Notes under the pieces: generated by a model
Database searches by the model: none
The model's input: only the letters and a program-made list of their open reading frames with translations
What the model was told of the DNA's origin: nothing
Made by a program: the position numbers and the translations under genes
In this document: piece after piece, positions 6,044 to 56,197 of the stretch
Layout: the number at the start of each line of letters is the position of its first letter
Position numbering within the stretch: the first letter of the stretch is position 1
Assembly (NCBI GenBank): GCA_026770025.1
Contig: JAMXDE010000029.1
Span: 248,001-312,000, forward strand
DNA length: 64,000 nucleotides
Direction: 5' to 3'
DNA from: Craspedostauros australis
Taxonomy: Eukaryota > Bacillariophyta > Bacillariophyceae > Mastogloiales > Achnanthaceae

Positions 6044-6362
6044 TTTATTTGTGTTCACAAGCACGCAATCGATATTTGTTTGAAAGGAAACGTGAGAACT
6101 CCCCTCGTGTTGTGGACATCGGTATCTTCGTGACCTGTCGCAGACATCATTGCGTTCCCACCAAATAAGAGTTTTGATATAACGCCACGACCCAACCAAC
6201 CAATCATGATGGTCGGTTCACGCAGTGCCATAGTTATTGTGTTCTGATGACGCCTTCGGGCTTCCGAAGGGTTTGTCCGACACGTCACGTTGGTCGTGTT
6301 GTGAATTTTCCTTTTCCGTTTTTACGTTTCGAAGCACATTTTTTTTGTGTTGTCGTTTTGGT
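6044..6362. other. Spacer left of the retroelement
   Basis: AT-richer DNA with T-runs and no recognisable gene. The last five bases, TTGGT (6358-6362), match the five bases just right of the retroelement (13012-13016) and may be a target-site duplication. Confidence 0.3.
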
Positions 6363-6638
6363 TGCGTCGTGAAAACGTGATTTCTGACTGATTGCATCAT
6401 TCATCCATTTCCCGAATCGTGTAATTATCGTGCTATACTCATATTTTTATGGTTTCTACCGACAAAATGCATGGTGTTGTCCAATTGTTGTCTGAATTTG
6501 TCAGTATCGCGAGTGTGTGGTGTGTATGATTTCGTGCTGATGGTGGATTCATGACTACGGAGCTGTGATGATGTTTGTTGTGTCAGCTGTTGCTGCTGTC
6601 GATGACGTCTGCATTGTACATGTGTACAGATGCCAACA
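6363..6638 (-). repeat. Putative 3' LTR of the Copia fossil
   Basis: On the minus strand it begins TGTTGGCATCTG directly after the purine tract and ends ...CA next to the candidate TTGGT duplication. About the first 30 bases align, mainly with transitions, to the 5' LTR start at 13011. The rest is not alignable by eye, so the inner extent and left end are tentative. Confidence 0.4.
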
Positions 6639-7060
6639 CCCCCATGCTTGTGGTAGCTAGCGGAAACAATTCAGTATGTCATACAAAGAAGACTGGGATC
6701 ACCGCACTCCACTGGCAGCATTCACCGGTAAACGTAGAATGATGGAATGCATCCCATGAGTAGGTCCGTATGTCAAAAGAACAGAATCACAGGCATCTGC
6801 TTGTTGCACAGATCCAAAGCATTGGGGTTGGATGACACATCAGTGATGAGGATGAGATATCTGCCCACCCAATTGCAGACCGCAAATGCGTGTATATCAA
6901 TATGCCTGGAGTTCCTTGGCAGTTGGTTGGCGTTTGCCATCATTCTAGCGCCTTGGTTGTCCTTGTAGATAAGTATGGCATGCTGTTGGCACATGCTGAT
7001 CTTGTCCAGGATGGACCGAAACCAGAGCACCATCTTTGTCGAGATGTACATGTGAGTATA

Positions 7061-7165
7061 TGTCGAGATGTACGCGTATATGTGCATCGTTCACCCGTTA
7101 TTCTCTCATACGCACTTGGACGGTATAACTACACTCGTGTCGATATTATGCTGTGATTCGTCATG
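7061..7165 (+). repeat. LTR-like segment in inverted orientation inside the Copia fossil
   Basis: This plus-strand stretch begins TGTCGAGATGTAC and aligns over about 100 bases with the start of the 5' LTR read from 13011 on the minus strand. Shared blocks include ATGTGCAT, TTCTCT.ATAC and ACTACA.TCGTGT.GAT, and most differences are transitions. A near-copy of its first bases also occurs at 7037-7060, making a short direct duplication. It lies where reverse transcriptase and RNase H should join, so it marks a nested or rearranged second LTR rather than the element's own end. Confidence 0.55.
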
Positions 7166-7330
7166 ATCACCATCATCACTCGATAGGCCACGTCATGAAT
7201 CACTGGTGAGTAGTGTTCCTGGAAGTCTACGCCTGCGACTTATCAGCACAAATACGTATAGTGCAAATTACGTTACTCCCATAGCCCCCACTATCTATAA
7301 ATTTCACTTGTGTTCGGATCAGCAATCGCA

Positions 7331-7400
7331 ACGCCTGCAGCTCAATGGTAGAGCACCAGTAATTCTCACTGAGGTTCCAGGTTCGAATCTTGGCATGGTA
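7331..7400 (+). pseudogene. tRNA-like sequence (tRNA pseudogene or SINE head)
   Basis: A D-arm of tRNA form (GCTCAATGGTAGAGC, 7340-7354) contains a good RNA polymerase III A box, and GGTTCGAATCT (7380-7390) is a near-consensus B box. The T-arm CCAGG/CTTGG pairs around TTCGAAT, and four anticodon-stem pairs form (CAGT/ACTG). The acceptor stem does not pair and position 33 is not T, so this is not a working tRNA. A T-run follows at about 7407-7410. It lies inside the Copia fossil and could be a tRNA-derived SINE head. Confidence 0.5.
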
Positions 7401-38814: not shown

Positions 38815-40779
38815 ATGATGCGAAGGAACCTGACGCTGGACATCCCGGCGATCCCCGAAGGCCAAGGACCCGGCAGCGACTTCGGCTTCGGCGAGAGCTA
38901 CACAGGTGCCGCAGACGACCATGACAGCCAGGCGACGTCGACGGTCAACGGCGTGCCTCCCACGCCGCAGCGAACGCAGTCCGTGTTCGTGCGTTCGCGA
39001 CCGGAAGTCGGCGCCATGTCCAGCTGGGACAGAACCAAGATTCAGATGAGGGCCGTCATGAACAACTTCGTCTGCTGCAGGGACACCTCCAAGAAGGTCC
39101 GCGTGCGCAGCAACAGCATCGTGGACGCGAAGTCGCCCATATCGCAGCGTCTGCAAGAAGCCATGGAGCAGGGAGTCAGAGCCGACCTCAGCAGCCGGTT
39201 CGATAGCAAGCGTAAAGCGTACAGTTCGGGCGGAGATGACAACAGCGGTGACAACGATGACAACGATGAAGGCCGGGATGATCGCGACGACGACGATGAC
39301 GACGAAGACGATGACAGCGCCCTGGACGATGCGCCGCCAGTTCAATTCCGTCTGGAGGCAACCAGCCATGGTCCTAGGGTGGGTTTCTTCCAATCGATGA
39401 CATCATGCTGCAGCGGGAACCTCACAGCGAGCGGAGCCCTGTCGATCGGGGAGAATCCAAACCAACGCCTTGCCATCTACCTGCACTGGGTCTTCCGTGT
39501 CAATTTCATCTTCCTCTTCGTGGTCATGTGCACGTGCTTCTTCTTCCTGGTCACCATCTTCGCGGGATTCATCATCTGGGCGGGTCGCATGGACGAGGAA
39601 TGCGTCCTCGTCGGCGGCAACAACATCGGCCACACGGGTAACGAATTTGCGGATGCCTTCGGTCTCAGCTGGACCACCTTCTCGACGGTGGGATACGGCA
39701 GCACCTACCCGTCGCTGGGGAATGAGAATGACAACCCCTCGCACTGCCTCTTCATCACGATCGTCTGCTCCCTCGAATCTTTCCTGGGTGTGCTCTATTC
39801 AGGATTCTGCGGTGCCATCCTCTTTGGCAAGGTGCTGCGCATTCAAAGCCACGCGCAGGTCTTGTTTTCGGATCCCATCGTCATTCGCTACGGCTCCGGT
39901 GTCATGCACGGCAACACCAAGGTGAATGCGCAGAGCGACGAAGATTCCAAGCTGGAGAATGGCAGCGCCGAGAGCGGGGCGTCAGGAGAAGATGACACCA
40001 ACCAACAGCTCCTGTGCCCCGTGCTGGAGTTCCGCGTCGTCAATCGGCTGTACGGTGAGGTGGGCGGCGAGATCATGGACGCCACGCTCAACGTCGTCGC
40101 CAACGTCGATGCCAACGACACCGACCCCAGATTCCGCAAGGCGGTGGAATCGGGCCAATTGCTCCCCTTCAACTCGCGCAGTCACAGCGCACCGGGATCG
40201 ATCATAGACACGTCCAGCGACTACAGCGACTCCAACAGGACGTGGTCGTACAGCGAGGGCGCCGCACCGTCGATGTTCATCAACCGCCTTGGCGCGCTGG
40301 GTGCCCGATTCTCGCACCGACGCGACCATCACTCCATCATCGAGGATCCTTCGTCGCGCTTCGTCAGCAAGCGCCTCTTCTCCAAGATGATGATCGAGGC
40401 CAGCGATCATCCATTCTTCAAACGCGTCTGGCTGGCGCGTCACACCCTCAACGACTCGTCTCCCATCCTCAAACCCAAGATCCGCCGCATGATCCGTCGT
40501 AACCAGGGATTCTGGCCCAACCAGCTCAACTCCCACGACGCCGTGCGCGACGCCCTGCAGTTCAATCAGATCCTCGTCTCCCTCAACGGCGTCTCCAACG
40601 TCAGCGCCTCCGACGTCTACGCGCAGAAGATCTACGACTTCGTCGACATCAATATCGGCTACCAATTCGTCAACATCCTTTATCGCGATCCCGACGGCAG
40701 TCTCAAGGTCGACACGGATCTCATCAACGACGTGCGAGAGCAGGATGGAGGTGGTGGAGAGCCGCTGTTGTCGGATTGA
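38815..40779 (+). CDS. Inward-rectifier-type (Kir) potassium channel
   Basis: Single-exon protein of 654 residues. Two transmembrane helices (about 228-256, HWVFRVNFIFLFVVMCTC; and 311-338, LFITIVCSLESFLGVLYSG) flank a pore with potassium filter TVGYG (291-295, in SWTTFSTVGYGSTYP). After helix 2 the pattern KVLRIQSHAQVLFSDPIVI parallels the Kir signature (K..RPKKRAETL.FS), and LEFRVVNRLYGEVGGEIMDA matches the Kir cytoplasmic domain (FRVGNLR). Four subunits would form a plasma- or endo-membrane K+ channel. Unusual points: a cytoplasmic N-terminus of about 225 residues with an acidic run (about 154-168, mostly Asp), and a long C-terminus with a Ser-rich insert (SAPGSIIDTSSDYSDSNRTW). Animal Kir channels are usually 360-500 residues. 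ATG at 38815 is followed by a second ATG; either could be used. Confidence 0.9.
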   Translation: MMRRNLTLDIPAIPEGQGPGSDFGFGESYTGAADDHDSQATSTVNGVPPTPQRTQSVFVRSRPEVGAMSSWDRTKIQMRAVMNNFVCCRDTSKKVRVRSNSIVDAKSPISQRLQEAMEQGVRADLSSRFDSKRKAYSSGGDDNSGDNDDNDEGRDDRDDDDDDEDDDSALDDAPPVQFRLEATSHGPRVGFFQSMTSCCSGNLTASGALSIGENPNQRLAIYLHWVFRVNFIFLFVVMCTCFFFLVTIFAGFIIWAGRMDEECVLVGGNNIGHTGNEFADAFGLSWTTFSTVGYGSTYPSLGNENDNPSHCLFITIVCSLESFLGVLYSGFCGAILFGKVLRIQSHAQVLFSDPIVIRYGSGVMHGNTKVNAQSDEDSKLENGSAESGASGEDDTNQQLLCPVLEFRVVNRLYGEVGGEIMDATLNVVANVDANDTDPRFRKAVESGQLLPFNSRSHSAPGSIIDTSSDYSDSNRTWSYSEGAAPSMFINRLGALGARFSHRRDHHSIIEDPSSRFVSKRLFSKMMIEASDHPFFKRVWLARHTLNDSSPILKPKIRRMIRRNQGFWPNQLNSHDAVRDALQFNQILVSLNGVSNVSASDVYAQKIYDFVDINIGYQFVNILYRDPDGSLKVDTDLINDVREQDGGGGEPLLSD

Positions 40780-41701: not shown

Positions 41702-43954
41702 ATGAGGAGTGCTGCGGGTGCTGCGGACTATGTAATCGCTGATGGAGTTTACACCGACGATGAGAAGAGGCGCAACCTTGATCAGAGCTCGGCTAATCAG
41801 CGAATGAGCAGCCGCCGAGACAAGTACGCGCATAAAGTGACGGAGGTGCAACTCGACAACAACACCGTCGATCTGCAAATGACGAAGCAGCTGTCGAACC
41901 TGCAGAAACGATACCGCGCGACGTCCGTGCAGGAAGCAAGGCCGCCACCGCGCAATGATGATATGGTGACGTTGAAATCGAAGAAGGAAGAAGAGAGTGC
42001 CATGCTCACATCTGTAGAAGATTCCAAGAAGCACTTTGACATGATGCATGTCACCGTTGTCGTGTACGGTCTCTCCGGCATCATCTGCTGCAACCGCGCC
42101 AAGGATGGCTGCGATGCAAGCTCCTGCAGTGGCACAACCGCCGCGACCAAGAAGGAGCTCGCCGGATCCAAGAAGACGAAATCCCTCAGCAAAAAATGGT
42201 CATCCAAGTCTCTCAAGGACAAATCGGGAGGAACAAGATCAGGGACAGACTCTGCAACGCAAGCCCTGCAGGTCCGGTCGAACACGATGCAGACCATTGC
42301 CACCGCCAGGACCTACTCGGGCAACACGGAAGGCAGGACGAGAGGGACGGACAGGTACGATCTCCCCCATGAATCACCTGTCGATGGCCGTCGTCATGAC
42401 TCGGACAACCGCAGCATCATCACTGAATCAACCAAGGGCTGGAGCGTAAGAACGCAAGGCGGGGACGTTGTTTCTTCCAAGATGAAGATGAATGACGGTG
42501 AGCACAACGAGGACAAGGAGAACGACGGGGGCAGCATGGCTACAAGCTCTGCCGGAGAGGCGCCAACCATGGCAGCCGTGTCAGTGACAAGAAACGCCTT
42601 CAGCAGCAAAACGGCCATGTCCACGTTCCTTCCCAGCGTGCCAATCAGCGCTCCCGTGCATGAGGTCGGCGGCAACTCCAGGTACAATGCGTCCTGGCCG
42701 ATCGATCAGTCGACGTTGGTGCAGGAGGAGGACGACGACGGCATCTCGCTGTCGTCGTTCGACCTCATCAGGACGATGCAGAAGCATTCGTACACGCCTG
42801 GTGAGATCAACGCTGGCGCCGTTGCGAACTACGTCCACGAGACCATCGAGATCAACATCCACCTGAGCAGGGGCACGGAGCTCCTGCCGATGGGGACAGC
42901 GTCCGTAGTAATCAGCGGAGATGAAGAAAGCGAGACGCACACGACGCTGTCCGTCAAGCCGTTCAAGTACAAGAACGGCAAGAAGCTCAAGCACAAGAAA
43001 TTCAAGGTCAAGCGACCGTCGAAGCTCAACCAGTACGGCTACTTCAGCCAAGATGGGTTGAAGCAGTACCATCTAGACGAGAATGCCACCCTGCGTGTGG
43101 GTGTGCGCGTCATCCCTGAGATGACCCTGCGAAGGGCCCTGAAACGCGAGAAGCAGGAGCGCGATCGGATGGCACTCCTGGACAGGATCGGCGAAGAGAA
43201 ACTGAGGAAGGCGGAGTTCCATCTCATCCGTCAGTCGGTGCTCAAGACCATGGATGAGAGCATGCGAATGAGCAGCATCCTCAGTCAGGATGGGCAAAAC
43301 AACGCCATCACCACCAACCAAGACAGCGCCGACACCAAGAACGACGGAAGCAGGACAACGGGCGCACGGTCGATCGAAGACATGATAAAGAGCCTGCTGA
43401 TATGCGCGACCAAGCATCAATCCCCCGCTGCAGCTGCGGGTGGTTCCGGAAATTTGAACCTGGAACAGCAGCTGCTGCGTCAGCAGCATGTCCTGAGACG
43501 AGTTCAAAACGGCATCGTCGATCCGAAGCTCGATGCCGGCGTGCGCACCATGTACGAGAACATGCTGGCTGCCGAGTTCGGGTCAACGGCGGAATCATCG
43601 ACGCAGAATATTCCGACTGAGATCACACCGGACAAGGAGCCTCATTACTTGGCGCTGGGCATCGAGTCCATGCTGTCCTCCATATCGGAATCAACGGACG
43701 GTTCCGGAGACAGCGACTACGACTACGACTACGATTACGATTACGATTACGATGACTTTGATCGCGCTGATCAAGACTATCGCCGTGCCAAGGATCTCGA
43801 CACGGGGTTGGGGATGGACCTGGGCATGGGGATGAACCTGGACATGGATATTAATCATCTGGACGGTGTGCTGCTGCCGTTGCAATACCAACAGCTCCAG
43901 TTGCTGAAGGAGAATCGCAAGGAGGCACTGGCACTGGCCGGCGGGCGGCTGTGA
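41702..43954 (+). CDS. C2-like family protein, copy A
   Basis: Single-exon protein of 750 residues, unnamed, but homologous to the genes at 44337-46652 and 54980-56197. The shared core has a first strand HVTVVVYGLSGIICC (116-130), a strand APTMAAVSVTRNA (287-299), a turn SVPISAP (312-318) and a last conserved block TIEINIHLSRGTELLPMGTASVVISG (381-406, here shortened to TIEINIHLSR and LPMGTASVVISG). The strand pattern and order resemble N-terminal C2 domains (NT-C2, as in EEIG1/EHBP1), which bind membranes or small GTPases; this link is inference. Copy A carries about 155 extra low-complexity residues (131-286) inside the core. After it come a basic patch (KNGKKLKHKKFKVKRPSK), a helical region (RALKREKQERDRMALLDRI), and near the end a DY repeat (YDYDYDYDYDYDD) coded by TACGAC hexamers. 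No targeting peptide; probably cytosolic. Confidence 0.75.
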   Translation: MRSAAGAADYVIADGVYTDDEKRRNLDQSSANQRMSSRRDKYAHKVTEVQLDNNTVDLQMTKQLSNLQKRYRATSVQEARPPPRNDDMVTLKSKKEEESAMLTSVEDSKKHFDMMHVTVVVYGLSGIICCNRAKDGCDASSCSGTTAATKKELAGSKKTKSLSKKWSSKSLKDKSGGTRSGTDSATQALQVRSNTMQTIATARTYSGNTEGRTRGTDRYDLPHESPVDGRRHDSDNRSIITESTKGWSVRTQGGDVVSSKMKMNDGEHNEDKENDGGSMATSSAGEAPTMAAVSVTRNAFSSKTAMSTFLPSVPISAPVHEVGGNSRYNASWPIDQSTLVQEEDDDGISLSSFDLIRTMQKHSYTPGEINAGAVANYVHETIEINIHLSRGTELLPMGTASVVISGDEESETHTTLSVKPFKYKNGKKLKHKKFKVKRPSKLNQYGYFSQDGLKQYHLDENATLRVGVRVIPEMTLRRALKREKQERDRMALLDRIGEEKLRKAEFHLIRQSVLKTMDESMRMSSILSQDGQNNAITTNQDSADTKNDGSRTTGARSIEDMIKSLLICATKHQSPAAAAGGSGNLNLEQQLLRQQHVLRRVQNGIVDPKLDAGVRTMYENMLAAEFGSTAESSTQNIPTEITPDKEPHYLALGIESMLSSISESTDGSGDSDYDYDYDYDYDYDDFDRADQDYRRAKDLDTGLGMDLGMGMNLDMDINHLDGVLLPLQYQQLQLLKENRKEALALAGGRL

Positions 43955-44336
43955 GTCCTCTCCTCTCTCTAACGAACGAATGTGGCATTAGAAGAAGCAT
44001 CGTTCGATTCGACTCTGCTTCACTTGATTTTAATCCAAACACAATTACATCGCATAGTACATTCAATCGAAACCAACTTAATCGTTCTTACTTCACTCTC
44101 TTCGACACTCAGGTGTTTCACTTCGTGTGCATAAAGGTTTAGCGATGATATTCCACAAGATCATGCAGCTCTTCCATGTCGTTCGTAGTTGAGAATGATG
44201 TCCAATCGATTTCTTCCATTTGCTGGTCGTACGTACGTATACTTCAAGTTGAAGAAAGTCACTCTACACATGGTGTTACCATTCCTTTGAACCTCACTCA
44301 ACCTCACTCAACGCAGCAACACCGCTACTCCAAGCC
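43955..44336. other. Convergent spacer
   Basis: 382 bases between convergent stops of two C2-like genes. Two tandem copies of ACCTCACTCA lie at 44291-44310, and ACGTACGTA at about 44230. No gene is supported. Confidence 0.45.
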
Positions 44337-46652
44337 CTACGTCCTGCCCTCCAACAACTCCTCCATGCTGATGCCGACCTTGTCCGCGTAACGGCGTAAG
44401 GTCACTTGGGCATCACGAAGATCCGTCATAGTTTCATGGGTCAGGTCGGTTGCAGAGAGGTCGTCCGAGTTCTGCGCATTGCCACCTGGCGGCCGTCGTT
44501 TGTTCGGAAGTTGCAATGGCTTCTTACGATTCTGTGGGGACAAGACGGGAGCATCGTCTCGGCCTTCCATGGCGATGTTGGTGTTCACCCTCAGTTCACC
44601 GCGATCAAGATTGCGAAGGCGGTTCCTGTTGCGACTGTTGCCAGAAGGCGTATTCGGATTGCGCGTGGTATGTCTGCCTTTGTTCAGTGTTCTGTCATTC
44701 CCTTGATTCACCGACTCGTGATCCCAGCTGGAGGATCCGTCGTCGTCGTCTTCATCATCATCGTCCTCATCCGAGGATTCATCCGTGCTCTCATGGCTGC
44801 CCCCGTTGCGCAGGTTGGAGGTGGTCCCGTCTTCAGACCCACACATTCCTGATGTGAGACATTGGAAGGGATTCGTGAACCTCATGGACTTGGTGAGCGA
44901 TGACACCACGGACATATCGTCCATCTTGACGACGAGGAAATCGAAGGGTGCAGCGCCCTCCTCCCCAGTGAACGAACTGCGTGATCGCGGTGTTCCGTGT
45001 GCAGATGCATGGTTCGCCGGACTGTGGTGCTGTCCTTGTGCCAACCTTTGTGCCTGTGCTTGCGTCTGAGCCTGGTTGTTCCAATCATTCGTTTCGTTCT
45101 TCGGGCTGCTGCTCATGAACGGTGCCATGAATGGCGACATCATCGGCGAAGTCTTTGGTTCCGCGTGAGGTGACACGAAGCTGCGTTGTATCGGCGTTGA
45201 TCCGTTTTGCTGTTGCTGTTGTTGCCGCTGTCTTTCGCTATTGTGCTGCTGCAGATGTTGTTGTTGATAGTATTGCTGTTGTTGCTGCTGATGGTACTGG
45301 AAATGTTGCGGAGTGCCAGGAGGTGATCTCATCTGACTGTCGATGATGCTGGAACCGGTGAAGCTGCGATCTAGACTGAACTTGGTGGTGTAGGATTCAT
45401 CGTCTCCGCGCATGTCGAAGAACGCTTCCGTGTCGCCAGGATTCCCCTCCTGCACGTCGAGACGGACGCGGAATGCAGAATTGGGCGCAAGGCCGTATGT
45501 GAAGTTGCCGTGCGTGGCCTTGCCATCAGAGCCGACGCCGCCTCCCATCTTCTTGCTGAACAGACCCTTGCGCTGCCTTGACCTCGTCCCCTGTGCATTG
45601 ACAGCGCGCACAGCCATGTCGACCTTCTGGTTGGCCACGTTGTTTCCACTGATGACGAGATTCGCGATACCGAGATTGTAGGACTGGTCGCCGCACTTGA
45701 TCCCAATGACGAGCTTGACGACCTCCGGAACGTAAGGGGCAATGGAATGCTTCGAATCATCGTCGATATCATCGAATGTATCATCTTCGTGATCCAGCTG
45801 GACGCAGAACTGCAAACGCCGACGCATCTTGTTCCCCGCTGCTGGCGATGCCTTGCCTCTTCCCGACATCCAGATGATCTTCTGATGCTTCGACCTCGCG
45901 TCGTCTCCGATCGTGGACGAGATGGGTTGGCTGACGGCCAACTTGGCTGGAGATTTATACAGCGCTGCGTATCCGACGACGAGGGAGTTGTTGAAGTTGC
46001 GCTTCCGATTCTTCTGCTCCACCATGAGACCCGTGACATATCCCAACGTGATGCGCACATGGAAGTTCTTCTTCGGTGTCTGGGTGGCAGCACGCGTTGC
46101 TGGAGATGCTCTCATGCTGCTGTTGCCAATGTTGCCACTGCCGGATGTCGGTGTGGACGTTGACGATGGCTTTCTACCCATCATCGATGTTGGTTGCGAA
46201 GGATTCGAAGCTGATGCTAGCGATCCCAACCTCCGTCGAAAGCCGACTTTGCGAATACTGTTGTCCAACGACAGTGACCGCTTGGAACGCAGTGACGCTG
46301 ATCTGTTTCTGCCGAATGCACTGAGACTTCCATCTCGACCATTCTTCTTGGCCCTGCGCTGCGTCGATGTCGATCGCCCTCTTCCCCTGCCCTTCATACT
46401 GCGTTGCCGTTGATTCTGCTTGGACTTGGACTTTGAATTTGACCTGCTGTTGCTCCCGTTGCTGCTTGTGAGGCTGTTCTTCCTCGTCACGCTGGCTTGC
46501 CTTCTTCGCTGTTGTTGTCTGCCGGATGATGCACGGCCTCTATCCCCACCACCTCCGCCGCCGCCGATGACTCCCTTTGCACCGACTTGACGAACCATTG
46601 CAGCCTCTCCTGCAGTCGGTGACCCGCGTATCCTCTGCTTGCCGACGACCAT
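44337..46652 (-). CDS. C2-like family protein, copy B
   Basis: Single-exon protein of 771 residues, convergent with copy A. Residues 1-190 are basic and Ser/Arg/Lys-rich (RSNSKSKSKQNQRQR; RGRGRSTSTQRRAKK), perhaps binding nucleic acid or acidic lipid. The C2-like core spans about 196-420: first strand FHVRITLGYVTGLMVEQK (197-214), FNNSLVVGYAALYKS (220-234), SQPISST (241-247), KIIWMSGRGK (258-267), then RRRLQFCVQL and VVKLVIGIK...YNLGIANLVISG (311-336). It lacks the long insert of copy A and is the most compact version. After the core lie Gln-rich tracts (QQQQQQYYQQQHLQQH), a segment LVVKMDDMSVVSSLTKSMRF, an acidic run and a C-terminal helix DLRDAQVTLRRYADKVGISM. Membrane or small-GTPase binding is inferred from the C2-like pattern; function unknown. 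Confidence 0.75.
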   Translation of the reverse strand: MVVGKQRIRGSPTAGEAAMVRQVGAKGVIGGGGGGGDRGRASSGRQQQRRRQASVTRKNSLTSSNGSNSRSNSKSKSKQNQRQRSMKGRGRGRSTSTQRRAKKNGRDGSLSAFGRNRSASLRSKRSLSLDNSIRKVGFRRRLGSLASASNPSQPTSMMGRKPSSTSTPTSGSGNIGNSSMRASPATRAATQTPKKNFHVRITLGYVTGLMVEQKNRKRNFNNSLVVGYAALYKSPAKLAVSQPISSTIGDDARSKHQKIIWMSGRGKASPAAGNKMRRRLQFCVQLDHEDDTFDDIDDDSKHSIAPYVPEVVKLVIGIKCGDQSYNLGIANLVISGNNVANQKVDMAVRAVNAQGTRSRQRKGLFSKKMGGGVGSDGKATHGNFTYGLAPNSAFRVRLDVQEGNPGDTEAFFDMRGDDESYTTKFSLDRSFTGSSIIDSQMRSPPGTPQHFQYHQQQQQQYYQQQHLQQHNSERQRQQQQQQNGSTPIQRSFVSPHAEPKTSPMMSPFMAPFMSSSPKNETNDWNNQAQTQAQAQRLAQGQHHSPANHASAHGTPRSRSSFTGEEGAAPFDFLVVKMDDMSVVSSLTKSMRFTNPFQCLTSGMCGSEDGTTSNLRNGGSHESTDESSDEDDDDEDDDDGSSSWDHESVNQGNDRTLNKGRHTTRNPNTPSGNSRNRNRLRNLDRGELRVNTNIAMEGRDDAPVLSPQNRKKPLQLPNKRRPPGGNAQNSDDLSATDLTHETMTDLRDAQVTLRRYADKVGISMEELLEGRT

Positions 46653-47738
46653 TGTACTCGTCCTGTAGTACTCGATGATGTGCGCCTCCTTCTCTTTCGT
46701 ACCCGTTCTCCTCTACGTGTATGCTGTTGTCAAGTGTTCTCGAATGAGTGGATGTATGCATGAAGAACTGGATTGCGGTAGTGGGTTTCTGTTGCTTTGA
46801 GGGCGGTAACCAGAAGCAGTTGTTCGTTTGTTTGATGTTGCTGCTGTTGCGATGATACTCAAGGAGATGTTGTTGTTGTTGTTGCTGCTTCAAACACAAA
46901 CGATGATCGTTGTGTTGGTTGCTGAAGGTGAATGGTGCTTCCGCAAACGTTGGCGTTGGGTATGCATCAACTAAATTGAGTATGGTAGAGTGGAGTAGGG
47001 TACTGGAAGGAAGCCCAGATGTCGCTGCCGTTGACTTTCAACTCAGGAGGCTTCGAGTCACTTCCAGTACTGCCGCGTGCGCCATGAATGATCACACCGT
47101 TGTTGGTGATGTTGCTGTTTTGTTGGCGCGGTTGCGAGTTTTTTCCATGGTTGTGTGACCGCAAACCCGTGGGATGTTGTCACCACAAAATGACATCGCC
47201 CAACGCTTGCCTGCGACTCGCTGAATCCACCTTGCTTAGCGGCGATTCTGATACGACATTCCAACGACGCTCGTAAAACAGCTTATTAATAGCCTTGTCG
47301 AGTGTTTAAAACGTGATATTGTGTCCTAGGACACAAAATGGACGTTTTAGCACATGACCCAACGCTAATTTTAATCCATCGAGTCATATGTCGTGTTTCA
47401 TTTGATTCATGAACCAATCCCGTACGGGAATGGAACCAAGAAACCTTTCGTGGCGAACCAACAGGAGAGCAAGACACAACAAGAAGCCAAACGAGGAGGG
47501 AGGAGATCCGACGATCCGACCATGGCGGATGGCATGGCACAGCGGCCGTTCGCACCGCAGCTCGCCGAGGCACAACAGCAGCAGCAAGAAGAAGGAACGG
47601 ACGCCACCTGAGGCCCTGATTGAGGCACTGATTGAGCTGAGTTGACGAAGCATCCACGGCGCCACATCCCACCCTCCGCACATCAGTCACAGCAGTCACA
47701 GCAGCCACAGCAGTCACAGAGCGAAGCAGTGCCAAAGC
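46653..47738. other. Divergent promoter region
   Basis: 1.1 kb between the starts of C2-like copy B (minus) and AP-3 mu (plus). It holds a TTG triplet tract (about 46.87-46.89 kb), the TATGGTAGAG motif (46982) and a GCA/CAC-rich AP-3 mu leader. No gene is supported. Confidence 0.45.
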
Positions 47739-49157
47739 ATGATCCAATCCCTGTTCATCCTGTCGCCGACGGGCGAAGTGCTGATCGAGCGGCACTTCCG
47801 AGGAGTGACGTCGCGATCGGTGTGCGACTACTTCTGGGACAAGGCCTCCGTCTCCGTGAACCACCATGGTGGGCTGTCCATGACGACGTCCCTGCTGACG
47901 AGCGAGGAGCAGCAGCTGCTGCTGCCCATCCACGACTCAGTGCTGCCGGTGATGGAGGTGCCGGAGGGTGACCATGGCACCGTCTATCTGGTCTCCGTGC
48001 TGCGGGACGGCCTGTCGTACCTGGCGGTGCTCACGGCGGAGGTCAGCCCGCTCATGATCGTGGAGTTCCTGCACAGAATCGCCAGCATCTTCGTGGAGTA
48101 CTTCGGCAGTCCCGCCGACGAGTCCGCCATCAAGGACAACTTCTCCACGGTCTACCAGCTGCTGGAGGAGATGGTGGACAACGGCTGGCCGCTCACGACG
48201 GAGCCCAACGCCCTCAAGGCCATGATCCGCCCGCCCTCCGTCATCTCCAAGCTCTCGTCGGTCGTCTTCAACAACACCACCGTGTCGGGACAGCTGCCCA
48301 GCGGGACCATCAGCAACATGCCATGGCGCGCCGCCGGGGTCTCGTACGGCCAGAACGAGATTTACATGGACATCATCGAGGCGGTGGATGCGATCATCGA
48401 CGCTTCGACGGGGACGCTCGTCTCGTCCGACGTCTCCGGCAGCATCCAATGCCAATCGCAGCTCAGCGGCGTGCCGGATCTGCTCATGACCTTTCAGGAT
48501 CCGTCCCTCATCGATGATTGCAGCTTCCACCCCTGCGTCAGGTACGCCAGGTTCGAGAACGACCAGGTCGTCAGCTTCGTCCCGCCCGACGGCAACTTCG
48601 AATTGATGCGCTACTCCATCACGCCGGAGAAGAAGTCCTTCTTCTCGCCGCCCATCGAAGTCAACGCGCAGTGGAACGTCAACGCCACGGCGGCAGCCGG
48701 CTCGGCCAGCGCCGAATCATCCGCCGTCCTCATGACGCACCTGCGAGCGCGGTCGCTGTCGTCGCTCGTCATGTCATCTTCGCGCAAGGGCGGCAGCGTG
48801 GAGATCGAGGATGTGGCCGTCACGATACCCTTCCCCAAGCAGGCGCGCACCGTATCGATCCAGGTCACGCACGGCACCTTCGTCTACGATGAGGCGGGCA
48901 AGGTGGCCAAATGGACGATCGGCAAGCTGTTGGACGACGTCACCATGCGCCGATGCCAATTCGTGGCCAACATCAAGTTCAACGCGTCGGAGGAGACCGT
49001 GGCCGCGCCGTCCTTGTCGTTGCATTGGAAGGTGCCGTTGTCATCCGTCAGCGGTCTCAGCGTCAGCGGGTTGACCGTGCGGGGGGAAGGATACCGTCCC
49101 TACAAGGGCGTGCGCAACATCACGAAGAGCGGCCTATTCCAAGTCAGATATAGCTAG
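47739..49157 (+). CDS. AP3M: AP-3 complex subunit mu
   Basis: Medium (mu) subunit of the AP-3 adaptor, which sorts cargo from endosomes or Golgi to lysosome- or vacuole-like compartments by binding YxxPhi signals. 472 residues, one exon. N-terminal longin domain (about 1-140: IQSLFILSPTGEVLIERHF; LMIVEFLHRIASIFVEYF) is followed by NFSTVYQLLEEMVDNGWPLT, the conserved end of the longin part, and TEPNALKAMI. The mu-homology domain starts at PWRAAGVSYGQNEIYMDIIE (about 197), which is typical of mu chains, and ends YKGVRNITKSGLFQVRYS, the AP-3-type terminus (mu1/mu2 differ). Human AP3M1 is 418 residues; the extra length is partly a Ser/Arg-rich loop (RARSLSSLVMSSSRKG, about 345-360) in the cargo domain. 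Start ATG 47739; an upstream GCA/CAC-rich leader has no better start. Other AP-3 subunits are not in the window. Confidence 0.95.
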   Translation: MIQSLFILSPTGEVLIERHFRGVTSRSVCDYFWDKASVSVNHHGGLSMTTSLLTSEEQQLLLPIHDSVLPVMEVPEGDHGTVYLVSVLRDGLSYLAVLTAEVSPLMIVEFLHRIASIFVEYFGSPADESAIKDNFSTVYQLLEEMVDNGWPLTTEPNALKAMIRPPSVISKLSSVVFNNTTVSGQLPSGTISNMPWRAAGVSYGQNEIYMDIIEAVDAIIDASTGTLVSSDVSGSIQCQSQLSGVPDLLMTFQDPSLIDDCSFHPCVRYARFENDQVVSFVPPDGNFELMRYSITPEKKSFFSPPIEVNAQWNVNATAAAGSASAESSAVLMTHLRARSLSSLVMSSSRKGGSVEIEDVAVTIPFPKQARTVSIQVTHGTFVYDEAGKVAKWTIGKLLDDVTMRRCQFVANIKFNASEETVAAPSLSLHWKVPLSSVSGLSVSGLTVRGEGYRPYKGVRNITKSGLFQVRYS

Positions 49158-50125
49158 AGAGTAGAGCATAGCATAGCATAGCGTAGCACTTTCAAGAATG
49201 TTACGAATGCAGCATGGTACATAGTCGTGGAGCGCCTTGTTTGTTCTAATCTCATCTGTATAGTATGGTTACTGGTTGAACACATGGAATGCATGAATCA
49301 TCCACACTTCTACTCGACTCTATGTAAACCAAACGGCCTTGCTCTTCTCCATGTGCCATCGGGATGCGTGTAGCTGGTGCGAGTACTACAAGTGGAGAGA
49401 ACACCACAGTAGATTGGGTTGTACACGTAGCTCACATCAACACACTTCTCGACAGCCGCTGCTAATCTTGCGTGTTGTTGTGGATCTTGTCCCTGAGGAT
49501 GTGTTGTTGTTACGACTCAAGCCAAGAGGGACACGAATGAGTTGGGTGTCTTGTCAGTGATCCATGAATCTTGGATACTCGTGGATTGGAGAAGGACGCA
49601 AAATGCCGCCAAGAATCCCCGAAACTGCGCAGAACAATCCCGCATCCAAGGTCCATCGCGCCATGACCAAATCGAGGTCACCAACATGAGGTCACTGCAT
49701 CCTGCTTTCGCATTTATTGCTATCGTGCATGAGAGCAACCTTCGCCAACAACATCGATGCCGATGACATCAATAGCACCAAACACAAATCTTCACCGAAG
49801 GTCTCGAAGGGATGATCGAGTGCGGTACCCGCGAGAGTGGAGCAATGGGAGAGCCAACAGGGCTGTGGCAACGGGAGGGAGCATGGATGGCAGTGGTGCA
49901 GGCGCAGACATGGGCAGACAGAGGGAGGGAGAGGGGTCAGAAGCAATCATAAAAACAACAGCATCGGAACTGCATCACAACATTGACACAAATCTCCCAG
50001 CTTCATTCTTCACAACATCACATTCATCAGAACACCCCATTCATCACAACAATCACAACCATCACAACTTCGCTCATTGCAGTCACAATTACAACCACAA
50101 TTACAACACCACATCCAGAATCAAC
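49158..50125. other. Spacer with GCATA repeat
   Basis: Begins with a GCATA pentamer repeat right after the AP-3 mu stop. The frame of the next gene is open upstream to an ATG at 49757, but that stretch (His/Asn-rich, from CACAAC leader sequence) looks untranslated. No separate gene. Confidence 0.4.
49166..49187 (+). repeat. GCATA pentamer repeat at a gene 3' end
   Basis: About four copies of GCATA starting 9 bases after the AP-3 mu stop codon. Confidence 0.8.
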
Positions 50126-51190
50126 ATGACCAGCACAACAACAACCTCGCTCCGCAACTTCCGTTGGGAGTACAAGATGTTCGCCATGCTCTCCGCATGC
50201 CTCATGATGATTTCTGCCAAGTGCAGCCTGGTGGAGTGCAAGGTCGCGCAGCGTGGCGGCGTCCCCACCCTCTCCTCCATGCCTGGCAACACGGCATTGG
50301 CCGCTACCCACGTCGCAGGCATGGACGAGATGGTCAGCACCAACGTTGAAGCCGACGCCCACAAGACCAAGCAAAGCAGCAAGGCCCGGCTGGACTTTGA
50401 GGGCATCTACGAAACCAGCAGCGAACCCATCACCTCCATCAACAACGACCAGCTCAACTCCTTCTTCCAGAACAGCGACAACCTCGCCATCCTCCTCAAG
50501 GGCGGCGACAATCCCATCGAGAACCTCCCCATGACGAACGAACTCCTTGAGATCTGGAAGGAGCAAGCCAGGGCCATGGGCACCACCACCCCGCAGCTGT
50601 CGGACCCCATCATCGCCGTGCAAAGCAGCGTCAACCTCATCCCGGGCCTGCGCATCGACGCCACATCCTACATGGGCTGCAAGATCCTGCGCAATCCGGA
50701 AACCTCCTTGCCAATCTTCGAGTTCACTCTGGTCTTCGACGAGTACGCCGCATCGGGTGCCAGACCCTTGGTGTGGTTGTTCAACAAGGTCACGGGCGAG
50801 AAAGCTGGCGCCGTGCCAAATGCCGATGACGACAGCAGCCGCGTCACGCGCGCCGTGAGCCGCATCACCATGGTCAGCGATGGCCTGTGGCGCAACACCG
50901 CCGGCGCTTTGACGATGCAGTACCACGGCATCGTGCGCGTCTCGTGCCGCGTGCCCAACGCCGTCCTGCGCATGCTGCCCATGTCCAAGGAATCCGTGCA
51001 GCAGAAGGTCTCCACCGCCATGGTGGGCCAGCTGCGACGTGAGGGCACCAAGTCGATGCAGAAGATCCAGTCCGCATTGACGCAATGGTTGGAGCAAAAT
51101 CAGGCTCCTCCTCGAGGTGGCGCTTGCGAGTCGCAAGCAAACAACCAACGACAACGACCATTTGCGCGCGTGTCTCGATTGTTTCGTTGA
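50126..51190 (+). CDS. Secreted or plastid hypothetical, tandem paralogue 1
   Basis: 354 residues from the ATG at 50126, chosen because it places a hydrophobic signal (KMFAMLSACLMMISAKC, about 18-34) near the N-terminus; an in-frame ATG at 49757 would add 123 low-complexity residues. The mature part (about 110-320) is homologous to the next gene: LLEIWKEQARAMGTTTPQL, IPGLRIDATSYMGCKIL, LPIFEFTLVFDEYAASG, PLVWLFNKVTGEKAG, then a C-terminal helix SMQKIQSALTQWLEQ. Alternating strands with conserved IPGL, G.K, P.FEF and a final helix suggest a beta-rich fold closed by a helix, perhaps a START/SRPBCC-like or DUF1997-like lipid-binding barrel; that is inference. No catalytic motif. After the signal there is no aromatic +1 residue, so secretion or ER is as likely as plastid. 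Function unknown. Confidence 0.78.
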   Translation: MTSTTTTSLRNFRWEYKMFAMLSACLMMISAKCSLVECKVAQRGGVPTLSSMPGNTALAATHVAGMDEMVSTNVEADAHKTKQSSKARLDFEGIYETSSEPITSINNDQLNSFFQNSDNLAILLKGGDNPIENLPMTNELLEIWKEQARAMGTTTPQLSDPIIAVQSSVNLIPGLRIDATSYMGCKILRNPETSLPIFEFTLVFDEYAASGARPLVWLFNKVTGEKAGAVPNADDDSSRVTRAVSRITMVSDGLWRNTAGALTMQYHGIVRVSCRVPNAVLRMLPMSKESVQQKVSTAMVGQLRREGTKSMQKIQSALTQWLEQNQAPPRGGACESQANNQRQRPFARVSRLFR

Positions 51191-51969
51191 ACGCAGGTAC
51201 GGATGGAGCGCAGCAGAACCCAACACTTACCATGAGATCTGATAAGTGTAGCACAGAATCGAACAAAAAGACGGCTGACAATCACGTTCACTCAGGTTGC
51301 GACCGATAAGTGTGAAGGCAGCGAACTAAAGAATGAGCAACAATACTCTAGTCCAAGCAATGAACTTTATATCTCTTCACCTCTCACAAGAATACCGATA
51401 GGATCCACATCCCACAGAGGAGAAGCATGCAGCTGGCATTCATGTGGATTCTTGTGCACGTCCACATTTGGCGAAGCGTTCGTGCCACCCACGATCTGTG
51501 GACCGGAATGTCCGCGTTGTCATCGTGGTGCGAAGCGTTTTGGCACCAGGAGTCCGTAGAACCCACCCAGCGAAGAGGAGAAGGTTGCGGAGAACGAACC
51601 TGGATGTCGGAAACAGCACAGCCACCGAATGGTGAAAACATGTCAACGAGAAATCAAACATCTGCCGAACTTCAACTTGGCGCCGACACCAAACGAGAGC
51701 GGAGGAATCCAAGAACAACCAACATCTGCGTTGCGGATGGTGCCAATGACCTCGCCAAGATGAGAAAGACGGGAGGCGTTCGGAGACTTCATCGCATGCC
51801 ACAGCATCCATCTATCTGATGCCTTGTGGCACACTTCGACGTACACGTACACGCACTCTATTGCAAAGGAAGGACATACCCTACCAAGGTTGTTGACCAA
51901 GGTTGTGAGATCGAGCAGAGTAGTTGTGCAATGGCAAATAGAGATTGCGGAAGATCGCAACGACGCAGA
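51191..51969. other. Spacer between tandem paralogues
   Basis: 779 bases between two same-strand paralogues. Open frames at 51427-51819 and its complement show no domain and lack good starts. It probably holds the promoter of the second paralogue. Confidence 0.4.
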
Positions 51970-52938
51970 ATGGCAAGGACAGCGACGATGACATCACCAG
52001 GCCATCGGATTGTCAATGTGGCGCTGCTGATCCTCATCTGCTGCCTGGGAACTTCAAGCTGCACGGCATTTGGAGTGCATCATCTATCTTCCGAACACAC
52101 TGTCCGGACGTCAAACTCACATGGCATCAGACTCGAAGCTGCCGTGGAAACGCAGACGAAGGAGGAGCAAGCGTCACTTGCTGCACCCAAACGATCAGCA
52201 TCCGGAACATCATCGCAAAAGAAGAATGATGACCGCTGCCTGACGTTCTTGGCGGAATTCGCGACGGACTCCACGCCCGTGCCAAGCAGCACGCCGAAAG
52301 AAGCGATCGACTACTTTCGCAATCCCAAGCACCTTTCCTTCGGTGCTTCGATGCCAAGCTCCAGAACCAAACCCACACCGCAATTGATGCAGAACTGGAA
52401 GGAGGCCTGCGTCCGCGTGGGCGCCAAGACTCCGACGGACCGCGACATCATCCTTAACGTCCGCACCGTCGGCATCTCCATTCCTGGCCTGACCATCGAA
52501 TGGTCCGCCTACCTCGGCGTCAAGCTGCGCAGGCAATCGAATGGATACCCCATCTTCGAATTCGTGCTGATCCAGGATGAGCTGTGCGCCAAGGGCCTCA
52601 CACCCGTCACGTACATCTTCGATCGCATCACGGGATCGCGCAACGGCAAGCAGAACAAGGACAGTGCACGCAAATCTGACTTTTTCAGTACGATCGGCAT
52701 GCAACGCAACGGTGACAGCAATGTATTCCGGTGCGAAGGGTTCATCGAGATCAATTTTCCCATTCCGCCCCTGTTGTTTCGGTGGATCGGCGAGGACAAG
52801 CAGGCGTCGGAAGAGCGCATGGGCAAGACCATTGGGAATGCGATCAAGAAGGACATGAAGAAGGCCTTGCGGACTTGGGAGGAGACCTACATCGAATGGA
52901 GCCAGCAGCGATCGCAACAGCAGCAGCATCAATATTAA
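51970..52938 (+). CDS. Plastid-type hypothetical, tandem paralogue 2
   Basis: 322 residues from the ATG at 51970 (a second in-frame ATG lies at 51988); the upstream frame to 51826 starts with GTG and is not used. Signal peptide: HRIVNVALLILICCLGTSS, then CTA|FGVHH, a good ASAF-like bipartite plastid signal with Phe at +1, followed by a Ser/Thr-rich transit-like stretch. The mature part aligns with the gene at 50126: LMQNWKEACVRVGAKTPTD, IPGLTIEWSAYLGVKLR, YPIFEFVLIQDELCAKG, TPVTYIFDRITGSRNG and a terminal helix KKDMKKALRTWEETYIEW. So it is a tandem duplicate whose presequence looks clearly plastid. Divergence is high, so the duplication is old. No enzyme motif; a small-ligand or lipid-binding fold is possible. 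Ends in a Gln/His tract (QQRSQQQQHQY). Confidence 0.8.
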   Translation: MARTATMTSPGHRIVNVALLILICCLGTSSCTAFGVHHLSSEHTVRTSNSHGIRLEAAVETQTKEEQASLAAPKRSASGTSSQKKNDDRCLTFLAEFATDSTPVPSSTPKEAIDYFRNPKHLSFGASMPSSRTKPTPQLMQNWKEACVRVGAKTPTDRDIILNVRTVGISIPGLTIEWSAYLGVKLRRQSNGYPIFEFVLIQDELCAKGLTPVTYIFDRITGSRNGKQNKDSARKSDFFSTIGMQRNGDSNVFRCEGFIEINFPIPPLLFRWIGEDKQASEERMGKTIGNAIKKDMKKALRTWEETYIEWSQQRSQQQQHQY

Positions 52939-53259
52939 TATGAGTACGGCTGGATGCATGGATGCATGAGAAGAGATGACTGAATTAATGAGCGTGTGAG
53001 CATTGTGATGAGTGTCGATTGTACTCGCACAGTGTACTATACCACAATGTGTAGAGAAGCAGTTCGATGCCCCATGTATTCCATACCTTTGCGTCTCTCT
53101 GTGTGTCGGTGTGTCTTGCTCTCTTCCTATTTTGACAAATCCCACTAACATGTGACAGTGAGAAGGGTGAGTGCCATTGGGACAATGCAGAAATCTCTGC
53201 TCTGTGCCCTCGATTGAACGAAGAAATAGTAGTCGCACAAGAGATGACGATGGAATTCA

Positions 53260-53372
53260 GGAGATGAACTCGGGACACAACCCTTGGAGTAGATGTTGGA
53301 TCCGGGAGACGAAGTTGGGACACAACCCTTGAAGTAGTTGTTGGATCCGGGAGATGAAGTCGGGACACAACC
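53260..53372 (+). repeat. 45-bp minisatellite, 2.5 copies
   Basis: Unit begins GGAGATGAA.TCGGGACACA and ends GTTGGATCCG. Copies lie at 53260-53304, 53305-53349 and a partial one at 53350-53372, with a few substitutions each. The length is a multiple of three, so minus-strand frames stay open and would read a 15-residue repeat (GCVPTSSPGSN plus four). Confidence 0.88.
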
Positions 53373-54675
53373 TCGGGAGGTTCCCCTTGAGGGTGACTGG
53401 TGATGAGCTCTCATCCCAAGCACGTACTGGTACTCGTTGTTGCGCTCGCCCCGCGATTGATGCATGGGTTCCTGAACAAGATTCACGACGAACCAGTCGC
53501 ACGTTGAAGACCTCATTCCCACAAACTTCGACGAAATTGCTCATCGTTGGAACTTCATTCTGGTGAACAGCCAATGGAAGTTGCGCACATCTTGCTGCAG
53601 TTCTGGAATCTCGCCGGAAGTGATCGTTCTCGAAATGCGGAGGAATGGAGCATCTGTGACGCTCTATTCCATCATGGAGTATTAATGCTCAAACGCACCC
53701 AAACGCACCTCGACTTTACCTAACGTCTCGACACAGCTGTGCAGAACTGCAGAGTTCGCTCCCATGGAAGCGAACAAGCGTTCCGCGGTGCGCACCGAAC
53801 AGGAGCGCCAAACAAGATTCCGCAAAAAATGTGGAGGGAGAAACGCGACACAATGCCCACAACGGACGCAACGGCGACGAAATGGTATCTTTTGTGACGG
53901 CGCTCGCTGTTTTGTGTCCCAATTTTGTGTGTATCGCAGTTTGTGAGGGGCGCCGCTAATAATATCGCTCGGTCACGCCCTCGTGTCAACACTGCGTCTA
54001 AGTGGAATTTGTACGTCCGTTGATTCTGGTATCGGGCGTCACAGTGTCGCAAACAACGTCACGGTTCTCACGACTCTGCATGTATTTTAGCAGAAAGCGA
54101 GTCGTCGAGCGCGGTTTGTTAAGTAAATTGTGGTATGGAAGTCACGTAGAGATGTACGTTGACGGGTCTTGTAGACAGAACATGTGTTGCATGTCAGAGT
54201 TCGGGCTTGGGGAAAATTCTCTCCCAGTTGGCGGGCCACGAGCGAAACATTTTGCCCATCAGCATCTCTTGTCGTTGTGCGTTCACGGTATTGCGTGGGT
54301 GGTCGGGTTGCCTCCATCCAACACGCAGAGTCACATCTTGTTGGGCGGAGTATGCACGCGTCGAGTATTAATACTCCACGAGCACCCCATTTCGCTCAGG
54401 CAATACCGCCATTCTCTCTGGACCAGTACGTACACGTGCTGATTGATCGAGTGAGTGATTGAGTGATTGACACAGTGATCGATCGATCGATCAATTCATC
54501 AACAAAGTAGCAACAACAAAGCAACAACAAAGCCAACAACAAAGTCAACAACAAAGCGAGAACGGCACTTGCAGCCACCTTTACATTCACGTCCAAGTCC
54601 GCATCCAAGAGTCCACTTTCAGTTCGGCCACCTTCGTTTCTCTCTCAATCTTCAAATGGAGAAGCCATCCTTGCA

Positions 54676-54724
54676 GAGAAGAGTTCAGTAGAGTCAAGTT
54701 GAGTTGAGAAGAGTTGAGGAGAGG
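54676..54724 (+). repeat. GAGTT/GAGAA pentamer-rich tract
   Basis: Imperfect run of GAGTT, GAGTC and GAGAA units about 250 bases before the start of C2-like copy C. Confidence 0.5.
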
Positions 54725-54979
54725 AAAGCCCACAACATCAGCGGAGTAGAATAGAGCAGTGCAGAGTACTTGACAGCCTTTGCACCATCTCTTCATTCTC
54801 TGCTACCATCACACCTTCCAAGCAGCGTATTGGTGGAGATCGGCCATCTCTGTGATCACAACACAGCAGGACGGAGCGAAACAGTCTTTGTGCATGGTCT
54901 GGCATGCCCAGTGGACACCAACGACAGACACAAGAATAGTGGCAAGGACGTTGACAAGAACAGATAGAATCAGAACACC

Positions 54980-56197
54980 ATGACAAGACAAAGAGAAAAG
55001 AGCGAACGAGGAGTGCAGGTGCAGCTGGACCTGCGCAGCGTCCACGGCGTCTCCTGGAGGGCCGACAAGGACGCGGAGAACGCGGCGCGACCCAGCATGA
55101 TGGCCGTCGTGGCATTCACGGGATCGGCCACCGACATGATGGTCAGCTCCTCCACGATGTGCAGCCGCACGGGCCACATGGTCATCGAGTCCAGCCCGTT
55201 GCGCATCGATGCGCAGGAGCAGAACGACCGCCCCGACCGCCACTGCCCGCTCTACGCCACCTTCCAGCGCAGGCGTTCGCAGGCCACGCCCTCCGTGCAC
55301 TCCACGTGCTCCTCGTCCGTCTCATCCCACCAGCCGCACGTCAGGGTGCAGCTGCCGCAGCGCGACGACAACGTCCCGTCCGTGTCCTTCGAGAAGACCA
55401 ACCGCGACTGCCGCGTGGTGCGACGCCACTCCGTCTCGCAGACCTTCAGCGACAGCTTCAAGGATGCTTCCGATGCAACCGCCGAAGAAGCCGCTACTAC
55501 CGCAACTCCCACAGAAACCACCACAACAACAGACACGACGCCAGGCCTCGAATGGGGCGACCAAAGCGAGGCCTCCATGCCCGAGATCCTCGAACTGCAC
55601 GTCAGCATCCGCTCCGACGACAACCGGATACTGCAGGAGGGCATCGCCCATCTCGTCCTGTTCGGCAGCCTCGAGGACTCCGCCATCTCGACCGTCGAGA
55701 TCCCCATCAAGCGCCACTGCAGCGTCGATCCCTCCGAGACCAATCCCGGCATCATCATCGAGGACGACGCCTTCGTGCGCATGAACGTGTATATCGGCGC
55801 CTCCAGCGATGACATCTCATCGCCGTGCGCTTCCCGGTGCACCGCCACGACGGAGGAGTGCTCGGTCGATACCAACGACGACGACGAGGAGGACATGAAG
55901 CATCCGCTGGATCTGTGGCAGATGGAGGAAAAGCAGCGGCACAACGAAGAGAAGCTCGAAGAAGCGCGCGTCAAGTCGGCCGAGATGGCCTTCGATGAGA
56001 TGGCGGTCGAAGCCTCCAGCCAGAGGTCCTTGTCGTGCGGCAGCATGGATCTGCGCCAGATCATGCTCACCCTCACGGACGCCTTCCGGTGCAGCGACAA
56101 GACCGCCCGCGAGGAGGAGGACGGATGCGCCGCCACGCTCATGGAGGCATCCACGATGGGTTCCACCATCGTCACGAGGGCATCGATGGGGCTCTGA
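54980..56197 (+). CDS. C2-like family protein, copy C
   Basis: Single-exon protein of 405 residues, the shortest of the three family members, with the C2-like core at its N-terminus (about 10-275). Blocks: VQVQLDLRSVHGVSWRADK (12-30), RPSMMAVVAFTGSA (37-50; compare APTMAAVSVTRNA in copy A), SSPLRID (71-77), VRVQLPQRDD, and PEILELHVSIR...LQEGIAHLVLFGS (201-230; compare LGIANLVISG in copy B). A Thr/Ala-rich linker (EEAATTATPTETTTTTDTT) interrupts the core, as longer inserts do in copy A. After the core come an acidic run (NDDDEEDMKHPLDLWQ), a helix rich in Glu/Lys (MEEKQRHNEEKLEEARVK) and a Ser/Met-rich end. It follows the two tandem plastid-type genes. A C2-like membrane- or GTPase-binding role is inferred only from strand pattern; no Ca-binding Asp cluster is evident. 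Confidence 0.75.
   Translation: MTRQREKSERGVQVQLDLRSVHGVSWRADKDAENAARPSMMAVVAFTGSATDMMVSSSTMCSRTGHMVIESSPLRIDAQEQNDRPDRHCPLYATFQRRRSQATPSVHSTCSSSVSSHQPHVRVQLPQRDDNVPSVSFEKTNRDCRVVRRHSVSQTFSDSFKDASDATAEEAATTATPTETTTTTDTTPGLEWGDQSEASMPEILELHVSIRSDDNRILQEGIAHLVLFGSLEDSAISTVEIPIKRHCSVDPSETNPGIIIEDDAFVRMNVYIGASSDDISSPCASRCTATTEECSVDTNDDDEEDMKHPLDLWQMEEKQRHNEEKLEEARVKSAEMAFDEMAVEASSQRSLSCGSMDLRQIMLTLTDAFRCSDKTAREEEDGCAATLMEASTMGSTIVTRASMGL

Follow-up and report, generated by a model that had tools for sequence, protein, structure and literature searches.

Three genes lie within 14.5 kb of one another in a diatom genome, and the question they raise is whether they descend from a common ancestor and, if they do, what kind of domain they have kept in common. 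The genes, which we call A, B and C, are found in a 64,000-base window of the Craspedostauros australis genome (the whole stretch of DNA that was analysed, bases 248001–312000 of contig C27), and the genome searches described here cover 74.8 Mb in 90 contigs. An earlier reading of the letters alone (the sequence-only reading) had taken the three for relatives with a C2-like core resembling NT-C2 domains, a possibly diatom-specific family spread by local duplication. Our analysis points to a locally clustered pair of paralogues (A and B, very probable) with a probable third member (C), unnamed by Pfam, for which a C2-like fold is the best guess at even weight.

The coordinates and frames given by that reading were right: each gene is a single open frame ending in a stop (Table 1), and the assigned frame is the first of the six in codon use. 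Scored against a training set of six other frames of the window, A reached +0.28 (its other five frames −0.09 to −0.69), B +0.11 (its other frames −0.15 to −0.53) and C +0.33. Fourteen of the 15 alternative frames were negative, the exception being a frame antisense to C at +0.07, the next best after C itself. The score of B is lower than those of all six training genes (0.15–0.42). Within gene A, a hexamer repeat at 43714–43753 encodes an Asp-Tyr tract in the acidic tail.

The Smith–Waterman alignment of A and B scores 73, where shuffled sequences average 30.8 (standard deviation 4.7) and none of 1000 shuffles scored as high, for a z near 9; BLASTP, run as a single comparison, aligns them at an expectation value (E) of 0.001 with 23% identity over 154 residues. 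The G.A.(L/V)VISG block is followed by the last strand of the core at a distance of 68 residues in both proteins, and the proline of the PIS turn by a tryptophan at a distance of 18 residues in both. A genome search with the C-terminal domain of A returned two matches, A itself and B (weak, E 2.1, 2.7 kb away), and in phmmer searches with the C-terminal halves each protein was the other's first non-self match among 1311 sequences (E 0.023 and 0.0055). Because of the shuffling result, the equal 68-residue spacing and the position of B as the sole non-self genome match of the A C-terminal domain, we consider A and B very probably paralogous. Some of the genome searches argue the other way: whole A did not recover B and matched 30 residues at another site instead (E 0.14), and the C-terminal half of B returned itself only, with no sign of A. 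Whole B gave five weak matches elsewhere, A not among them.

To see how far the likeness extends to C, we scored each shared block against every position of the other protein. Four blocks in the same order had been proposed, and the order stands, as does the fourth block in all three proteins: its two halves, (V/M).E(hydrophobic)... and G.A.(L/V)V..G, rank 1 or 2 in all directions among A, B and C, and in the B–C pair both halves come first in either direction. The P-I/L turn holds up between A and B (rank 1) and is weak against C (ranks 12–29), and the second-strand block is poor overall (ranks 19–192, with C scored one residue off the intended register). The first strand, whose ranks between A and each of the others are listed in Table 1, stands at rank 2 from B to C and 13 from C to B. 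A fifth block, not part of the original four, is the last strand (DENATLRVGVRV / APNSAFRVRLDV / IEDDAFVRMNVY), which ranks 1–2 for A–B and A–C and 11–12 for B–C.

Alignment of C with its two neighbours gave an uneven picture. The B–C cores score 46 (mean of shuffles 30.5), which 5 of 1000 shuffles equalled, and their C-terminal halves were matched by 4 of 5000; A–C scores 40, reached by 100 of 1000 shuffles (cores) and by 15 of 5000 (C-terminal halves). BLASTP found no meaningful match for A–C (best E 2.9) or B–C (best E 0.16), and whole C searched against the genome found itself and two weak matches elsewhere. When single blocks were run against 1931 open frames, the 50-residue block of B placed A at rank 2 and C at rank 3, the 53-residue block of C placed B at rank 3 and A at rank 8, and the block of A placed C at rank 6. 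A frame at 6058–6321 on the minus strand, which scores 54 with the A block, contains no further blocks and was set aside as chance.

Leave-one-out profiles from a hand alignment were run against 411 frames of the window together with 900 shuffled sequences. Since that alignment, which also underlies the block ranks above and the hhalign values below, was built with all three proteins in view, its leave-one-out values are flattering, and automatic alignments are fairer. The A+C profile found B at E 1.1e-5 by hand, and as first non-self match at 0.0037 (C-terminal halves) and 0.048 (cores) by automatic alignment, and the B+C profile found A at 0.0016 by hand and 0.061 with automatic C-terminal halves. 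The profile-profile alignment that had been proposed as a check on the three cores proved weak: leave-one-out hhalign joined A+C to B with a probability of 42.9% (E 0.00025), B+C to A with 4.4% (E 0.0092) and A+B to C with 3.4% (E 0.013).

A number of results from the same comparisons count against kinship of all three. The automatic B+C core profile reached A only at E 0.73 (rank 6), and the A+B profile failed to pick C, whether built by hand (E 4, rank 6) or automatically (E 3.2 for the C-terminal halves and 4.1 for the cores, at ranks 29 and 8). In the A-block query the score of the chance frame at 6058–6321, 54, came near the 57 of B. In a control with random segment pairs, the best non-self match stood at E 0.01 or below in 10 of 150, in an unsorted set where some of the low values may come from true paralogues or antisense frames; for that reason, weak profile E-values mean little here.

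These data allow for an explanation in which only A and B are true paralogues, and C, a beta-rich protein of other origin, owes its likeness to them over some 30 residues to chance. It would account for the failure of the A+B profiles to single out C, for the lack of significance of the A–C cores, and for the query with the C block, where a chance frame (from a locus fetched for its motif) outscored B by 50 to 46. It leaves unexplained the shuffling result for the B–C C-terminal halves, the mutual first ranks of the fourth-block halves between B and C, and the matching order of blocks in a gene 8.3 kb away. We regard this explanation as possible, at roughly half the weight of its opposite: C is probably related to A and B, as judged from these alignments. 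The claim of three related genes is thus very probable for A–B and probable for C.

Searches for further members bear both on how local the family is and on whether the likeness exists at all. In the genome as a whole, 8 sites fit the DNA pattern for G(I/T)A.(hydrophobic)V(hydrophobic).G, with 7 in the control, and three of the 8 belong to A, B and C; as these genes served to design the pattern, its count is no probability. By eye, the other five sites showed no further block. Another narrow pattern had 3 genome matches, and among the narrow-pattern matches only A, B and C were accepted as relatives. A broad pattern gave 70 matches, fewer than its control (92), with B and C among the 70; one further site (C17:264805) was read by eye and not accepted, and the remaining 67 were run against four profiles (best E 0.025, at locus L050) and their frames of at least 90 amino acids read, with none accepted as a relative. 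In the 40 kb that flank the window, 20 kb to each side, the best value from four profiles was E 0.41, and scans of viral contigs and prokaryote genomes found no relative. Genome searches with whole proteins, C-terminal pieces, profiles and DNA patterns thus detected no further copy, within the limit that copies interrupted by introns or still more divergent may have escaped them; the result fits the local duplication that had been suggested.

It may also be asked whether the three proteins are related in any way, or whether hydrophobic strands chosen by eye look alike by chance. The motif was picked post hoc, random profile pairs reach low E-values at the frequency given above, and the reverse genome searches miss the partner, all of which would be expected if there were no relation. 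Against this stand the A–B shuffling z-score, the equal spacings, the genome search in which the A C-terminal domain matched nothing but itself and B, and the three G(I/T)A sites that coincide with A, B and C while the other five lack further blocks. We consider the absence of any relation very improbable.

The sequence-only reading described a 155-residue insert within the core of A; the insert is there, with a length closer to 147 residues when the spacing between the first two strands is compared with that of B and C (Table 1). It shows no similarity to B residues 1–193 or C residues 100–195. The flanks, described as unrelated, showed no similarity in five comparisons, a set outside which the N-terminal flank of C and the B–C tails lie; a relationship between the A and C tails was ruled out, with 529 of 1000 shuffles as good.

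We then considered the kind of domain the genes encode. The pattern behind the C2 reading opens with a strand that ends in G and a second strand, goes on with a turn, a W and more strands, and closes with the hydrophobic G.A.(L/V)V..G block and a last strand. In C2 domains a hydrophobic-G block precedes the last strand, and a tryptophan after the second strand is typical of the NT-C2 family, which was reportedly defined by Zhang and Aravind in 2010. Pfam was scanned with the three whole proteins and six core pieces at E ≤ 10, a limit within which the HMMER filters drop most matches above about 0.1. Consistent with the remark that no copy has obvious annotation, no Pfam-A model names A, B or C; the weak matches (DUF6972, TFIIA, NOA36, DUF5537 and Hexapep_2) were all under their cut-offs. 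The library is able to detect NT-C2, since PF10358 picked out a plant NT-C2 segment at 64.2 bits (E 1.3e-17). A genome search with PF10358 found 0 matches, as it did in its 14 control genomes, and was uninformative. A single-sequence AlphaFold2 model, unreliable in itself, placed six strands where the blocks lie.

The direct tests of a C2 identity gave it no support. No Pfam C2 or NT-C2 model matched A, B or C, whole or as core pieces, neither the NT-C2 profile PF10358 (cut-off 25.2 bits) nor the classical C2 profile PF00168. No PDB sequence matched B (phmmer) or three profiles. Compared by hhalign with the plant NT-C2 segment, the A/B/C alignment stayed at chance (0.3% over 17 columns in an implausible place, 8 of 60 column shuffles as good), in a comparison of low power that used that one control sequence. 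AlphaFold2 predictions of B were unusable, with a predicted local distance difference test score of 33.5 for residues 186–421 alone and 34.9 for residues 195–405 with A 345–475 and C 10–277 as added rows. The likeness to NT-C2 put forward for these genes is thus not supported by these tests, with PF10358 silent beside a working control and hhalign at chance. As Pfam, PDB, hhalign and AlphaFold2 give it no support, the C2 reading rests on the pattern, and a C2-like sandwich is our best guess from the block order and the basic loops of A and B, held with even confidence.

Two alternatives share this evidence. The common domain may be a beta-rich one other than C2 (immunoglobulin-like, PH-like or an undescribed fold), with no membrane role; the negative sequence tests against C2-type families and the lack of a usable AlphaFold2 fold are what it would predict, while the block order and basic loops suit a C2-like domain. 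We rate this a serious contender, somewhat short of even. Alternatively, A, B and C could be highly divergent true members of the NT-C2 family of EEIG1 and EHBP1 that the Pfam model misses. An architecture of one domain with a disordered tail, like that of FAM102 (PMC12406788), would agree with this, and so would the tryptophan 18 residues from the proline in A and B. We find it unlikely, given the silence of PF10358, the hhalign result, and a domain that starts near residue 115 in A and near residue 195 in B and so is not N-terminal.

Returning to a C2-like domain, comparison with known systems indicates how it might work. Like the NT-C2 proteins EEIG1/FAM102 and EHBP1, the three have a supposed beta-sandwich, a compatible block order, long disordered regions and, in A and B, basic residues near the domain; they differ in matching by neither Pfam nor hhalign, in the position of the domain in A and B and in the extra residues of A. 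With classical C2 domains (PF00168) they share a possible sandwich with the hydrophobic-G block before the last strand, although the family's model finds none of them. According to PMC12406788, FAM102A/B and yeast Ybl086c consist of an N-terminal C2 domain and a disordered tail, and FAM102 is a plasma-membrane adaptor whose tail brings the lipid-transfer protein BLTP2 to the plasma membrane; the resemblance of A, B and C to these BLTP2 partners, a C2-type domain (here a predicted one) plus a disordered tail, is one of architecture alone. In worm EHBP-1, as reported in PMC4894640, two basic patches of NT-C2, before strand 1 and on strand 2, are needed to reach endosomes rich in phosphatidylinositol 4,5-bisphosphate. 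Human EHBP1 NT-C2 bound the 3- and 5-phosphates of phosphatidylinositol without calcium, and phosphatidylserine with calcium, in a lipid overlay described by its authors as preliminary (PMC7442826).

Charge is distributed unequally among the three. A Lys/Arg-rich loop before the last strand has a net charge of +8 in A (residues 401–450) and +7 in B (351–400), and B residues 1–200 carry a net +41, A residues 1–150 being about neutral. C speaks against a common mode of membrane binding: its matching stretch has an acidic net charge (−5 and −8), it lacks both the basic loop and a basic N-terminal tail, and ahead of strand 1 it has four basic residues and two acidic ones. In the model we propose, A, B and probably C would be paralogues that arose long ago in tandem, each holding a single C2-like beta-sandwich (about 200–270 residues) amid long disordered stretches. 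The sandwich would dock on acidic membranes through basic loops (the loop before the last strand in A and B, and in B also the N-terminal tail), and the disordered tails may recruit partners, as baits, in the manner of the membrane adaptors FAM102/EEIG1 and EHBP1. We infer that the domain folds in this way, binds membranes and acts as an adaptor, and do not claim NT-C2 membership; drawn by analogy, the model of tandem paralogues acting as FAM102/EHBP1-type adaptors is tentative, and we hold it with clearly less than even confidence.

The cluster is interrupted by other genes. Between B and C lie a clathrin-type adaptor complex medium chain (47739–49157, Pfam E 3.8e-65) and the genes D and E, which are clear paralogues of each other (Smith–Waterman 250, 0 of 1000 shuffles) with no Pfam match at E ≤ 0.01. 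In the genome, D matches position 2405656 of contig C9 best (E 1.7e-28) and gene E less well (1.2e-21). As relatives of A, B and C, D and E were ruled out, 74 to 173 of 300 shuffles being as good. In the 10 kb round the relative of D (L099, C9:2401001–2411000), a 115-amino-acid frame at 5890–6234 on the plus strand gave E 0.0081 with the B+C profile and 0.25 with the combined profile, and is probably noise. Elsewhere in the window, a 654-amino-acid open frame at 38815–40779 resembles, to the eye, an inward-rectifier potassium channel, with no Pfam match at E ≤ 0.01; broken frames on the minus strand at about 6400–9200 look by eye like remains of a Copia-type retroelement; and 53260–53372 holds a 45-base tandem repeat (2.5 copies, 89% matches). 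In the genome, 88 stretches match the silicon-transporter family PF03842, which points to a silicifying organism and fits a diatom; 31 of them span profile positions ≤11 to ≥504, and 3 of these 31 contain an in-frame stop.

Table 1. Features of the gene cluster, in window coordinates
Feature	Position	Strand	Description
Gene A	41702..43954	+	750 amino acids, one open frame with stop
A, first predicted strand, MHVTVVVYGLSG	42044..42079	+	Placed by block position; ranks of 1–2 in comparison with B and of 27 and 73 with C
A, stretch between strands 1 and 2	42080..42559	+	160 residues (B has 12, C has 13)
A, remaining core	42560..43123	+	Second strand, PIS turn, G.A.SVVISG block, basic loop and last strand; Smith–Waterman 73 to B
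Gene B	44337..46652	-	771 amino acids, one open frame with stop, convergent with A
B core, residues 195–404	45441..46070	-	Most compact copy; from blocks, shuffling and profiles
Gene D	49757–51190		Paralogue of E
Gene E	51826–52938		Paralogue of D
Gene C	54980..56197	+	405 amino acids, one open frame with stop; kinship to A and B probable
C core, residues 10–276	55007..55807	+	Long Ser/Thr-rich loop ahead of the G.A.LV block

Among the papers listed by literature searches on diatoms and on C2, NT-C2, EHBP1, EEIG1 or FAM102, none dealt with such a family in diatoms. At its broadest, the picture would be of a three-member C2-like adaptor family invisible to Pfam, confined as far as searched to one 14.5 kb cluster, with about 16–26% identity, an insert in A and unrelated disordered tails, and still linked, that is, a fast-evolving and lineage-restricted diatom trafficking module; we put this forward as a doubtful proposition. 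If the domain has another fold, a small unannotated gene cluster would remain, with A–B paralogy probable. If it is C2-like, diatoms would have membrane adaptors that escape current family models, adjoining copies would have diverged nearly beyond recognition yet stayed linked, and A, B and C would offer concrete genes for studying vesicle routing or membrane contacts in diatoms.

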